From: Myxococcus landrumus
Lineage (GTDB): Bacteria; Myxococcota; Myxococcia; Myxococcales; Myxococcaceae
Assembly: GCF_017301635.1 (NCBI RefSeq)
Contig: NZ_CP071091.1
Location: forward strand, 3,980,001 to 4,044,000
Direction of reading: 5' to 3'
Length of the DNA: 64,000 nt
Part shown: in pieces, positions 30,812-37,789 of the stretch
Layout: every line of letters starts with the position of its first letter
Numbering within the stretch: the stretch's first letter is position 1
The notes under the pieces: model-generated
The model's input: the letters and a program-made list of their open reading frames with translations, nothing else
Told to the model about the DNA's origin: nothing
Database searches by the model: none
Position numbers and translations under genes: made by a program

Positions 30812-31822
30812 ATGACGACCATCCGAGTGAATCGAGTGCAGTGCGCCGTCTGTGACAGCGTGAGTGAGCAGCGAAGCTTGGGCAGCACCTCGACCTTCGG
30901 CCATCCCGACCTGGATGGGAGACCGGACCTGCTCGCACGCACGACCCTGCGGTTCTGGGTCCAGACGTGTCCCGCGTGCGGGTACTGCGCGACCAGCCTG
31001 GACGACGCTCCCGCCGGTGCGTCCGAAGTCGTCCACTCGGAGGCCTATCTCGCCCAGTTGCATCAAGCGAACACCCCGGCCCTCGCCAACGAGTTCCTGT
31101 GCCAGGCCCTTCTCCTCGAGTCCTCCGGTGACAAGCGAGGCGCCGCCGCGGCCCGGCTGCATGCGGCGTGGACCGCCGATGACTCCCGCGACGAGGGGCT
31201 TGCCCATCGCTGCCGCACCCAGGCGGCGGACCTGCTCCTCGCCGCCCCGCCACGGCCTGAATCGAACGCACACGAAGACCTCGGCTGGCGAGGCTGGAGC
31301 GGCGTCCAGGAGGTGGACCTGTATCGCCGGGCGGGCCGGAGCGATGACGCGCGGAGGGAGGCGGAGCGTGTGCGCAGGGGAGGCGTCTCCATCCTCGTGG
31401 AGCAGCTGTTGACGTATGAGCTGGAGGCCCTCGAGCGCGGCGACACCGCGCGTCACACAGTGGGCGAAGCACTCGGCCAGCCGTCGGACACAACAGTGGG
31501 CGGAACCATCGAGGACCCGCTCCTCGGGTACCTGCTGCGTCACTATGGGCAGTTCGCCACGAAGGCGGAGCATCAAGCCGCCCGGATGAACACCTTCAAG
31601 ACGAAGGACGGAACCCGGTGGGCCACGGAGCAGCCCGAGCTGCTCGCGTTGCTCGCGGAGGGCAAGGCGGGGTTGGGCCGCATGCTGGAGCGAAGGTTCC
31701 TGGCCGAGCATCCCCACGAGGTGGTCCTCAACCGCTGCCCGCAGTGTGGCGCACTCGCGCGGACACCCCTGGCCCGCCAGTGCCGGGCCTGCCCTCATAC
31801 ATGGCGGGAGTCCGCCCGTTGA
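30812..31822 (+). CDS. Zinc-ribbon protein with helical repeat body
   Basis: 336 aa, GGAGG ribosome site. An N-terminal metal site is formed by VQCAVC (11-14) and CPACGYC (about 53-59), similar to DUF2225-type proteins. The middle (70-290) is Ala/Leu/Arg-rich and helical, TPR-like (LLAGDPxxA-type spacing is weak). The C-terminus is a rubredoxin-like ribbon (CPQCGALARTPLARQCRAC). Two zinc sites flanking a helical body suggest a protein or nucleic-acid adaptor. No catalytic motif is visible; function unknown. Confidence 0.75.
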   Translation: MTTIRVNRVQCAVCDSVSEQRSLGSTSTFGHPDLDGRPDLLARTTLRFWVQTCPACGYCATSLDDAPAGASEVVHSEAYLAQLHQANTPALANEFLCQALLLESSGDKRGAAAARLHAAWTADDSRDEGLAHRCRTQAADLLLAAPPRPESNAHEDLGWRGWSGVQEVDLYRRAGRSDDARREAERVRRGGVSILVEQLLTYELEALERGDTARHTVGEALGQPSDTTVGGTIEDPLLGYLLRHYGQFATKAEHQAARMNTFKTKDGTRWATEQPELLALLAEGKAGLGRMLERRFLAEHPHEVVLNRCPQCGALARTPLARQCRACPHTWRESAR

Positions 31823-31935
31823 GCCGTCTCACCGACCAGCCGCCAACGGGTGCGACACCACGGGTGCATCAACACCCAGGAAGACCTGGCGCGTAGGGCG
31901 CTAAGCTCCGGGCCCTGTTTCCAGGAGGAATCGAA

Positions 31936-33303
31936 ATGAGTGTCAAAACGTGGCTGGTCGCGATGGGGCTCGCGGCCGCGGGGCTCGGCTGCAGTGGAGA
32001 CGACGGTGCAACGGGGTCCCAAGGTCTCCAGGGCAGCCAAGGTACGCCCGGCCCGCAGGGAGAGCGAGGCCCCGCGGGGCCACCCGGGCAATCGTGGCAG
32101 GTCGGCACGGGGCTGGCGCTGAGCAACAACGTCCTCAACCTCCGGTTCGGAACCGGGGCGGAGTTTCCCGTCTCCGACAATGACTTGCGCCTCTCCAACC
32201 CGCGCGAGCCCTTGCCCGACAGCGCCAGCTACATCCAGAACAAGGCCAACGGCGACACCCAGACGGCCTCGTTCCGCATCTCTGGACCGGGCATCGTCCA
32301 GGAGCGCCTGGCGACGAACACCGAGCTGATCGTCGACACGTCGAAGGGAATCCCCAACACGCCCCCCTCCCCCAGCGACCCTTCCAACACGCTCCTGAGG
32401 CTCCAGAACACGCTCAACACCGGCGTGAAGTGGACCCAGTTCCCCCTGCTCACCGTGGACTCGGCGGGCAGCATCCTCGCGCGGGGCGAGGCGGGCCAGG
32501 GACCGATTCCCATGACGGGCCAAGGCGTGCGCCTCATGTGGTGGCCGCGACAGGGAGCCTTCCGCGCGGGCTATGCGGACGCCCAATGGGACAGCGCCAG
32601 CGTGGGCCTGTACTCCTGGGCCGGCGGCAACCAGACCCTCGCCAGCGGACAGGGCGCCTTCGCCATGGGCGAGCGCTGCACCGCGGGCGGCCGCAACTCC
32701 GTGTGCATGGGCAACAACAGCAGCGCCACGAGCGACTCCAGCGTCGCGCTGGGCTATCGCGTGTCGACCGGCAACTTCCCCGGCTCCTTCGTCTTCGGCG
32801 ACCAGTCGAGCCTCGACATCCACACCGTCTCCGCCCCCAACCAGTTCCTCGTCCGTGCCTCCGGTGGCATCCGACTGCGCACCAGCTCCAACCTCAACCT
32901 GGGCTGTGACGTGCCTTCCGACACCTCCGAGCTGCGGTGCACGTCCGACCGCAACGAGAAGGACGACTTCCGGAACGTCGACGGCGAGGCCCTGCTCGGC
33001 AAGGTGGCCAACCTCCCCATCTCCACCTGGCGCTACAAGCGCGAGCAGGCCGACGTGCGCCACATGGGCCCCGTCGCGCAGGACTTCCGCGCCACGTTTG
33101 GTCTCGGCACGGACAACAAGAGCATTGGCTTGCTCGACATCTCCGGCGTGAATCTCGCGGCCATCCAGGCGCTCGAGGTCCGCACCCGCGAGCTGCGTGA
33201 GAAGAGCGCCGAGGTCGACGCCCTCAAGTCCGAGATGGCCGAGCTCAAGCGCACCATGTCCCGGCTCGAGGCCGCGGTCCTCGCGAAGGACGCGCGCCCG
33301 TAG
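31936..33303 (+). CDS. Collagen-like lipoprotein with S74 self-cleaving chaperone domain
   Basis: 455 aa, AGGAGG ribosome site. Lipobox GLGC (C19) is followed at once by about ten Gly-X-Y triplets (21-52). A beta-rich middle has YadA/Hia head-like repeats near 215-275 (ASGQGAFAMG, TAGGRNSVCMG, SSVALGY). From about 335 comes a peptidase S74 / intramolecular chaperone domain: S337 and K342 in CTSDRNEKDDF form the expected Ser-Lys self-cleavage dyad, then HMGPVAQDFRATFG. A C-terminal helix with heptads (425-450) ends it. S74 domains trimerise phage tailspikes and then release themselves. Here the product would be a trimeric, lipid-anchored surface fibre. Confidence 0.85.
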   Translation: MSVKTWLVAMGLAAAGLGCSGDDGATGSQGLQGSQGTPGPQGERGPAGPPGQSWQVGTGLALSNNVLNLRFGTGAEFPVSDNDLRLSNPREPLPDSASYIQNKANGDTQTASFRISGPGIVQERLATNTELIVDTSKGIPNTPPSPSDPSNTLLRLQNTLNTGVKWTQFPLLTVDSAGSILARGEAGQGPIPMTGQGVRLMWWPRQGAFRAGYADAQWDSASVGLYSWAGGNQTLASGQGAFAMGERCTAGGRNSVCMGNNSSATSDSSVALGYRVSTGNFPGSFVFGDQSSLDIHTVSAPNQFLVRASGGIRLRTSSNLNLGCDVPSDTSELRCTSDRNEKDDFRNVDGEALLGKVANLPISTWRYKREQADVRHMGPVAQDFRATFGLGTDNKSIGLLDISGVNLAAIQALEVRTRELREKSAEVDALKSEMAELKRTMSRLEAAVLAKDARP

Positions 33304-33317
33304 CCTCCTGATGGACG

Positions 33318-33361
33318 AAGGGCCTTCGCGCATCCCACCCATGGGGAGCACGAAGGCCCTT
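33318..33361. terminator. Bidirectional hairpin after the S74 lipoprotein and the gamma-lyase
   Basis: AAGGGCCTTCG / CGAAGGCCCTT, a perfect 11-bp stem with a 22-nt loop containing its own CCCATGGG, in the convergent gap. Confidence 0.55.
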
Positions 33362-36544: not shown

Positions 36545-37699
36545 CTACCGCCAGCAGGCGTTGTTGACGCAGCGCTCGCCCGCGGGGCACTCGCAGTTCG
36601 CAAGGCACGCATTGCCGCTGCCCTGGGGCCTGCAGGCGCCCTCGGTGCACACCTGCGACGCGGGGCACTCGCAGTTGGCGCGGCACACCGTGCCCGCGTC
36701 AGGCGAGGGCGGAGGCAGTTGGCAGGCGCCATTGGTGCAGACCTGACCGGAGGGGCACTCGCAGTTGGCCGTGCACGCGGGACCGGGGCCCGCGTCCGGA
36801 GGAGGCGGCGGCGCGCGGCAGTATCCCTCCGTGCACACCTCACCCGAGGGGCAGTCGCAGTTGGCCTGGCACGCCTTGCCCGGGTCCGGCTGCGAGGGGC
36901 GGCACTGGCCATTCGCGCAGACCTGGCCGGAGGGGCAGTCGCAGTTCGCGCGGCACTCGCCACCGTGGGGAATGGGCTGGCAGTAGCCAATCTCGCAGGT
37001 GTGGTCCGCGGAGCACTCGGTGGTGGACGAGCACTGCGCGCGGCACTGGCCATTCACGCAATCCTTGCCCCCCGTGCAGTCCGCCGCCGAGTAGCACGCG
37101 TTGGGGTCCCTGGGACGCGGGCGGCAGACATTGGCGCTGCACGTCTCGGTGCTGGAGCACTGTCCATCCGTGGTGCAGCCGCGGTGGCACTGGTTGTTGA
37201 TGCAGTAGTTCCCCGCGCCACAATCCTTGTTCACCCAGCACTGCGGAGGCGGTCCCGCGTCGCCGGTCGGCGGATGCCCGCCATCCGGGCGAGGGCCGCC
37301 GTCGGGGCGCGGGCCGCCATCCGGACGCGGGCCCCCATCGGCGGTGCCACCATCCCTCGACGGAGGCGTGCTGGGGGCGCAGAAGCCCGCTTCACACCGG
37401 CCCCCTTCGCCGCAATCGCCAGCACGCGTGCAGGGCTGGAGGCAGACCGAGTTGATGCAGACCTCGGAGCGACCACAGTCAACGGACGAGAAGCAATCTC
37501 GAGCATTCGGCGAGCGGTCCCGACAGTAACCGGCACGGCAGAACTGGTCCGACTCACAGTCGCTGCTCGAGACGCAGGCGCAGAGTTCGTCTTCATCCAT
37601 CCAGCCGTCGTCGTTCTCGTGGATGATGCAGCCTTGTAGGAAGGCCAACAGCAAGACGAGCGGCGTCAGCAAACCGCGTACGACGGGGGGATGCCTCAT
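36545..37699 (-). CDS. Modular Cys-rich lipoprotein
   Basis: 384 aa from the ATG at 37699. Lipobox FLQGC (C24). The mature part is a chain of 8-10 small disulfide modules of the type C-x2-DC-x5-C-x4-C, e.g. SSDCESDQFCRAGYC. A (DGGPRP)n linker near 130-155 separates them from five near-identical C-terminal copies of ANCDCPSGQVCANGQC. Such EGF/Dickkopf-like arrays are common on myxobacterial surfaces; binding partner unknown. It is divergent from the sigma-factor gene across an AT-rich palindrome. Confidence 0.85.
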   Translation of the reverse strand: MRHPPVVRGLLTPLVLLLAFLQGCIIHENDDGWMDEDELCACVSSSDCESDQFCRAGYCRDRSPNARDCFSSVDCGRSEVCINSVCLQPCTRAGDCGEGGRCEAGFCAPSTPPSRDGGTADGGPRPDGGPRPDGGPRPDGGHPPTGDAGPPPQCWVNKDCGAGNYCINNQCHRGCTTDGQCSSTETCSANVCRPRPRDPNACYSAADCTGGKDCVNGQCRAQCSSTTECSADHTCEIGYCQPIPHGGECRANCDCPSGQVCANGQCRPSQPDPGKACQANCDCPSGEVCTEGYCRAPPPPPDAGPGPACTANCECPSGQVCTNGACQLPPPSPDAGTVCRANCECPASQVCTEGACRPQGSGNACLANCECPAGERCVNNACWR

Positions 37700-37789
37700 G
37701 GGCGGGGACTCCGAGCTTTCGGGAACCGGTCCGGCCACCGGGTGGGTTGTCCGGTTTCACCCGCGTTCGTCTCCAAGGCGCTGACGGAT

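Follow-up and report, generated by a model that had tools for sequence, protein, structure and literature searches.

The gene at positions 31936-33303 of the window (the whole stretch of 64,000 nucleotides of Myxococcus landrumus DNA analysed here) probably produces a cell-encoded, trimer-forming and self-trimming fibre, which is lipidated at its N-terminus, keeps its fibre part and sheds its chaperone. A lipoprotein-like start, a collagen run, a YadA head and an S74 (also referred to as ICA) domain had been reported in one chain by the initial annotation; these domains and their order were confirmed, and they are kept in relatives. To our knowledge, self-cleavage by S74/ICA domains has so far been studied in phage tailspikes and MYRF transcription factors. 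The kind of chaperone is therefore already known, and what would be new is to find this self-cutting device of phages and MYRF on a fibre that is encoded by a cell and predicted to be held by lipid. If the reading is true, cells have put a viral assembly device to an unusual use, and a conserved clade of lipoproteins from predatory, social bacteria would exemplify trimeric fibres made without an autotransporter barrel. The case is also compact, comprising one gene, a predicted cut, two putative catalytic residues and a possible disulfide.

The open reading frame called by the initial annotation is exact: it runs from the ATG at 31936 to the stop at 33303 on the forward strand, is preceded by a Shine-Dalgarno sequence and has GC contents of 0.63/0.53/0.91 at the three codon positions, as is typical of real genes in GC-rich genomes (Table 1). 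No sigma-70-type site was found for this gene in a promoter scan, which is uninformative here. The hairpin that follows the gene is possibly a two-way terminator shared by both convergent genes, and it did not appear in the output of a terminator scan. A protein search of the genus matched 22 of 27 genomes, one of them (G014) by the collagen part only, and the 28 genes studied here (the window gene included) come from 21 of the 27. Six of the 27 genomes have no S74 match, and the S74 fibre gene is thus not essential.

Table 1. Features of the S74 fibre gene and its flanks, in window positions
Feature	Positions	Strand	Basis
Shine-Dalgarno sequence AGGAGG	31923..31928	+	Sequence; 7 bases 5' of the ATG
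Entire gene, 455 aa	31936..33303	+	ORF, GC3 0.91, homologues
Signal peptide, residues 1-18, K4 followed by a hydrophobic stretch	31936..31989	+	Sequence; looser lipobox rule holds in 28/28 genus genes
Cys19, predicted lipidated +1 residue; +2 Ser, +7 Ala	31990..31992	+	Sequence; strict lipobox mismatched at -3 and -2
Collagen-like stalk, 11 Gly-X-Y triplets, residues 21-53	31996..32094	+	Sequence; Pfam Collagen below cut-off
Fast-changing fibre domain, residues 54-215	32095..32580	+	dN 0.17-0.25 versus 0.02-0.08 for the S74 part; pLDDT mostly <50
YadA-like head region, residues 216-310 (Pfam match 250-274), with Cys248 and Cys257	32581..32865	+	Pfam, model
Cys324-Cys335 stretch, candidate disulfide just before the predicted cut	32905..32940	+	Both Cys invariant 28/28; disulfide putative
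S74/ICA chaperone fragment, residues 337-455 (Ser337, 32944-32946; Lys342, 32959-32961)	32944..33300	+	Pfam, conservation, model
C-terminal helix, residues 399-453, a/d heptads 420-448	33130..33294	+	Model; heptads read from sequence
Hairpin between the S74 gene and the convergent Cys/Met-metabolism gene	33318..33361		20-nt arms, 85% complementary

The proposed self-trimming rests on the C-terminal domain. Peptidase_S74 (PF13884) matches residues 337-388 (E 8.1e-11, 42.5 bits, above the cut-off of 22) and was also matched in the genome-wide search, and the Ser337/Lys342 dyad and the last 119 residues (337-455) are as the initial annotation had described them. An aspartate (Asp338) follows the serine, and the dyad has the spacing of 5 seen in endoNF and MyRF, where the equivalent pairs are S911/K916 and S587/K592 (PMC8326128). 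Fifteen sequences from several phyla all keep Ser337, Arg339 and Lys342, and also HMGPVAQD, which served as a search pattern and is therefore built in. Cys324, Cys335, Ser337, Asp338, Arg339 and Lys342 are among the columns that do not vary in the 28 genus proteins, the HMGPVAQDF motif and the start of the last helix are also largely invariant, and the tail after the predicted cut is 113-120 residues long in every case. Judging from their position, Cys324 and Cys335, which the initial annotation had missed, may form a disulfide that locks the new C-terminal end after the cut. In the last helix, heptad positions a (Leu420, Val427, Met434, Met441 and Val448) and d (Leu430, Leu437 and Leu444) can be read from the sequence, and the trimer helix of MyRF is described in PMC8326128 as having four heptads of similar make-up.

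The predicted fold, which the initial annotation had named as a check of the S74 assignment, resembles solved ICA domains. In a monomer model of the full protein, the S74 part has pLDDT values mostly of 78-98 (with a dip to 50 at residues 391-400), the YadA part is fair and the first 215 residues are poor; the S74 part modelled alone as a monomer with 16 relatives reaches a mean pLDDT of 85.7. With the latter model, Foldseek placed three chains of 7dc3 (the ICA domain of MyRF) in the top three ranks (probability 1.00, TM 0.54-0.60, E 2.8e-3 to 4.4e-3), and VIA-align returned 7dc3, 3gw6 (an endosialidase), 4uw8 (the T5 fibre) and 3gud at ranks 1, 2, 4 and 6 (Z from 6.5 down to 5.0), the best ICA match having Z 6.5 and an rmsd of 3.2 over 105 residues; helical look-alikes score Z 5.7 and 5.4 among these ICA entries, so the VIA Z alone is not decisive. 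The chain of 3gud, which we take to be a piece of GA-1 gp12, is a freed chaperone that begins at residue 620; this is also its first aligned residue, and its partner in the alignment is Ser337 (model residue 37), which a cut before Ser337 would predict. A profile search of the PDB with alignment A2 gave a weak result, with 7dc3 (E 0.006) second to spectrin, which led via its helix. When VIA-align was run with the full model, 6fm2 (Z 6.5) and 2b0r (Z 6.1) headed the table with matches to residues 198-323, and these were set aside as beta-helix look-alikes.

A domain of this fold could also act as a trimerisation knob and chaperone only; periplasmic cleavage would then be slow or would not occur, and the tip of the fibre would retain the 119 residues. 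MyRF cuts only when its ICA domains are trimers (PMC8326128), a state that the window protein may fail to reach. The serine and lysine of the dyad are nevertheless invariant throughout the 28 genus genes and the 15 cross-phyla sequences, a pattern that appears hard to explain without catalysis, and we consider a permanently retained knob unlikely.

As for the anchor, the start of the protein passes a looser PROSITE-type lipobox rule, and so do the starts of all 28 genus genes; the rule is loose, and for other genera any passing start codon was accepted. In differing sequence contexts, a cysteine closes the hydrophobic stretch in 28/28 genus genes and, elsewhere in the phylum, in 19 of 26 S74 ORFs. 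In the genus, the count of 27/27 is partly built in, as the start-choice pattern for the alignment demanded Gly/Ala/Ser-Cys, and one gene (L066) was scored with its start moved to an upstream ATG; the alignment column of C19 itself holds Cys in only 7/28, with gaps displacing the cysteine. The lipobox residues -3 to +1 are G-L-G-C, which is degenerate: the canonical form given in PMC3222651 is L-[A/S/T]-[G/A]-C, and both the Leu at -3 and the Ala, Ser or Thr at -2 are missing. The lipobox of the initial annotation agrees with the looser rule and with the position of Cys19 after the hydrophobic stretch, and falls short of the strict consensus at -3 and -2. Cys19 is a predicted, putative lipidation site.

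An unlipidated Cys19 would give a different product, in which signal peptidase I frees the trimer and disulfides through Cys19 join the three chains at the foot of the collagen. The degenerate GLGC would fit such a protein, as would the 21 of 22 relatives outside the phylum that fail the lipobox rule (three of these ORFs are cut off N-terminally), including a Deinococcus plasmid protein nested in the myxobacterial clade. The recurrence of a cysteine at the end of the hydrophobic stretch in varied contexts, across the genus and in most S74 ORFs counted from the phylum, speaks against it, and this alternative also seems improbable to us. Returning to a lipid-anchored protein, the residues after the cysteine offer hints as to its destination. 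Ala at +7, which PMC3222651 reports for matrix-sorted lipoproteins of M. xanthus, is present in the window protein, in 7/11 syntenic genes in all and in 1/17 other genus genes; in the window protein it could just be the second residue of a Gly-Ala-X triplet, and matrix export is only a lead. Lys at +2, an inner-membrane signal according to that paper, is absent from all 28 genus genes (0/28).

Between anchor and chaperone lies the fibre proper. The Gly-X-Y run claimed by the initial annotation was read directly as 11 unbroken triplets from G21 to S53, and Pfam Collagen matches residues 19-53 at E 1.4e-4 with 22.0 bits, below its cut-off of 27.2. Such a run (7-17 triplets) is found in 14/28 genus genes, the other 14 having only 1-2 chance triplets, and it is the least conserved part among the 28 proteins. 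The YadA-like head is likewise borne out, with YadA_head (PF05658) at 250-274 (E 3.9e-6, 27.5 bits, above the cut-off of 25), and Cys248 and Cys257 are kept in 25/28 and 24/28 genus genes, respectively. A Pfam scan of the 455-aa protein at E up to 1 found no C-terminal beta-barrel membrane anchor.

These parts evolve at different rates. In comparisons with three orthologues (L048, L049 and L050), dN of the S74 part was 0.02, 0.04 and 0.08, that of residues 54-215 was 0.17, 0.25 and 0.25, and that of residues 216-336 was 0.07, 0.14 and 0.36. The S74 part thus has the lowest dN in all three comparisons, except for the signal and collagen stretch against L049 (0.054 versus 0.080 for S74), and in most of them the dN of the fibre exceeds that of the chaperone several-fold. 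A simpler statement, that the domain near the membrane changes fastest, was rejected: residues 54-215 are fastest against L048 and L050, but residues 216-336 are so against L049 (0.363 versus 0.253). Because the S74 fragment is the best-conserved part of the protein, one could suppose that the fibre is a mere carrier and that the shed C-terminal trimer is the active product, serving for example as a signal or capping another protein. A self-cleaving chaperone predicts equal conservation, however, and no Pfam family other than S74 is above its cut-off within the 337-455 fragment, which makes an active shed trimer very unlikely.

The gene is chromosomal and lies in a single-contig genome of 10.37 Mb, among genes matching Ada/AlkA, a methylguanine methyltransferase, a PEP-mutase-type enzyme, MaoC, a Cys/Met-metabolism enzyme (which we take to be cystathionine gamma-synthase), an enoyl-CoA hydratase and a methyltransferase. 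Of ten neighbours scanned, nine match families of metabolism, repair or unknown function and one has no match; none (0) matches a phage family. This flank is common to 10/27 fetched genus homologues, which places the site in 11 genomes counting that of the window, and the Cys/Met gene directly adjoins the S74 gene in five of those ten and lies ~2.1 to 2.4 kb off in the other five. The other 17 homologues fall into four further flank groups, and none of the ten window neighbours was found beside them. An ORF at 30812-31822 (336 aa, with CxxC motifs and no Pfam match) was rejected as an operon partner; it is not beside the orthologues L048 and L049, and only pieces of it are present in L050.

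Beyond the genus, S74 was found in 55/146 genomes of a phylum sample, and named genomes, when scanned, yielded 14 loci, which fall in Bacteroidota, Chloroflexota, Gemmatimonadota, Planctomycetota, Verrucomicrobiota and others. Plasmid records gave 16 matches (the best to a Deinococcus plasmid, E 5e-64, 43% identity) and phage records 23 weaker ones (best E 5e-9); a scan of viral contigs with the window protein found no relatives, and one with alignment A1 found two (L161 and L162). The metabolic neighbours, the synteny in 11 genomes and the nearest relatives, which are plasmid-borne and cellular, rule out that the gene is phage cargo. The same three observations, the plasmid matches being far better than those to phage records, together with the signal peptide and a dN/dS of 0.19-0.42 in the S74 part, leave next to no room for a stranded phage or phage-tail-like fibre gene with no cellular role, even though the collagen, YadA and S74 parts match PHROG families that are, among those listed, mostly tail-fibre families.

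In the model that we favour for the lipid-anchored fibre, the chain would be exported by Sec and its N-terminal cysteine lipidated. In the periplasm, the S74/ICA domain and the coiled coil would, as in other members of the family, gather three chains and fold the YadA head together with the domain preceding it. Once the correct trimer is reached, the conserved Ser337/Lys342 dyad would cut before Ser337 and the 119-residue chaperone would leave. As Sec exports the chain unfolded, the periplasm would be the site of the cut and the compartment into which the 119-residue piece is first released; its exit from the cell would be a further step, which corrects the release described in the initial annotation. 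We know of no relative with demonstrated periplasmic cleavage. The remaining trimer would sit on three lipid anchors, with the collagen stalk spacing the fibre from the membrane in half of the relatives, and its tip would perhaps be closed by the Cys324-Cys335 disulfide. No partner gene near the S74 gene points to a function; the product is probably an adhesin-like fibre of the outer membrane or the matrix, the fibre domains of which change faster than the chaperone.

The position of the anchor was compared across S74 proteins. The search of the phylum sample gave 87 S74 matches, from which 40 loci outside the genus (L109-L148) were taken first, leaving out three of four G040 matches and two of three G052 matches. 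Fourteen of the 40 (L121, L122, L124, L131, L134-L137, L139, L140, L144 and L146-L148) gave no ORF by the motif pattern and were dropped, L136 with a lipobox-like start among them, and 26 were counted; the pattern requires the Ser-Lys spacing, so these 26 ORFs say nothing on the dyad. For L129 the last passing start, a late one, was reported, and a normal start is also present. Twelve further loci, including the second S74 genes of genus genomes and L158, L159 and L160, are uncounted. A lipobox-like start is found in 19/26 ORFs, and a cysteine stands two residues before the predicted cut in 18/19 of these versus 0/7 of the others. Among 22 relatives outside the phylum (16 loci and 6 plasmid proteins), one, from Gloeobacter (L168), passes the lipobox rule and has the cysteine before the cut, which is also present in 3 of the 21 that fail the rule, three of the 21 ORFs being cut off at the N-terminus (L037, L040 and L043); the start of L047 is unclear, L035 reaches no stop codon in its contig, and L042 is lipobox-like by an internal cysteine in one reading and fails the rule as applied to the outside proteins. 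All 28 genus genes have the cysteine, which brings the overall counts to 47/48 lipobox-like proteins versus 3/28 others (76 proteins, many of them close kin). As a marker of a lipid anchor it is strong, but it was rejected as an exclusive one, since three proteins that lack a lipobox-like start also carry it, namely L036 (Dehalococcoidia), L041 (Anaerolineales) and the Deinococcus protein.

In a tree of 116 columns, which are few and leave many forks open, 43 lipobox-like proteins group with the Deinococcus plasmid protein (support 99/96), and a second clade (100/100) holds four short proteins that are also lipobox-like; three anchor changes are needed with the labels used, under which the Gloeobacter protein is marked as having no lipobox. 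The cysteine pattern is, by these clades, largely inherited together with the anchor. The Deinococcus protein (sp. QL22, L163:2189-3418) lies within the myxobacterial lipoprotein clade, has a signal peptide without a lipobox and keeps the cysteine before the cut, a possible case of transfer with an anchor swap. The Gloeobacter protein, from a plasmid of G. morelensis (L168:1835-2899), combines a lipobox-like LLGC with this cysteine outside the phylum.

A second type of anchor is indicated by a membrane helix after the C-terminal coiled coil, which was called by hydropathy at a threshold of our own setting and is present in 0/48 lipobox-like proteins and 7/28 others (76 proteins, many close kin and not independent). 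The seven are L034 (Hymenobacter), L036, L040 (its start cut off) and L041 (Chloroflexota), the Herpetosiphon plasmid protein Haur_5099, L143 of this phylum and the viral contig L162. A basic end accompanies the helix after the coiled coil in L034:4740-6002, L036:4227-5795, L040:3-893, L041:2322-5861 and L165:1744-3816 (Hymenobacter and Chloroflexota). In MYRF, the chaperone stays membrane-bound and the trimer is released (PMC8326128, PMC3742443); by analogy, S74 proteins with a C-terminal helix, if they cut themselves, would release the fibre and keep the chaperone. We tentatively suggest, as a generalisation that may well not hold, that bacteria use S74/ICA domains for envelope fibres and that the place of the anchor sets the outcome: with an N-terminal lipid, as in Myxococcaceae, the fibre would stay and the chaperone be shed, with a C-terminal helix, as in some Chloroflexota and others, the reverse would occur in the layout of MYRF, and in the lipid-anchored proteins a disulfide by the cut would seal the tip. 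Two anchor positions around one self-cutting domain offer a natural comparison.

The window protein shares parts with several known systems. Phage tailspikes and fibres (endoNF, the T5 L-shaped fibre and GA-1 gp12) have, like it, a C-terminal S74/ICA domain, a dyad spacing of 5 and a long C-terminal helix, and their structures (3gw6, 4uw8 and 3gud) align with its predicted fold; in contrast to them, it would be exported, has a predicted lipid anchor at the opposite end, is encoded by a cellular gene and carries a collagen stalk, a YadA head and cysteines before the predicted cut. MYRF and MrfA, membrane-tethered self-cleaving transcription factors with a dyad at S587/K592 in MyRF, represent the ICA domain in cellular use, and 7dc3 is the nearest solved fold; MYRF is anchored on the chaperone side and its trimer is released, whereas the window protein would be anchored on the fibre side and its chaperone would leave. 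The 'tail fiber domain-containing' proteins of Deinococcus sp. QL22 (WP_249394982.1, 43% identity over residues 191-444 of the window protein) and Allomeiothermus (WP_013159675.1) share the YadA-like repeats and S74, but their signal peptides fail the lipobox rule, unlike that of the window protein. YadA head repeats are shared with the trimeric autotransporter adhesins of the YadA family, from which the window protein differs in its predicted N-terminal anchor and in a C-terminus of S74 and a long helix, where no beta-barrel was found. Legionella Lcl and the streptococcal Scl1/Scl2 adhesins have the Gly-X-Y stalk of a surface protein in common with it, whereas the window protein has a predicted trimerisation domain of the self-cleaving S74 type and a lipobox-like start; its NCBIfam matches to bacterial collagen-like adhesins are weak and far below cut-off. 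Polinton-like viruses are known to have fusions of collagen with S74 (PMC12220804), and among the titles listed in searches of open-access literature, none reports a lipoprotein of this kind.

Two further S74 genes are present in the same genome. One (L158:10598-12343; C1 1218097-1219842), in which no signal peptide was seen, lies in a cluster that resembles a phage tail locus, with genes for Baseplate_J and DUF6046 proteins, and the other (L003:1441-2709; C1 about 9695000) is the weakest match of the three. Elsewhere in the window, positions 36545-37738 encode a cysteine-rich repeat protein with a lipoprotein-like start and DUF7107 repeats.
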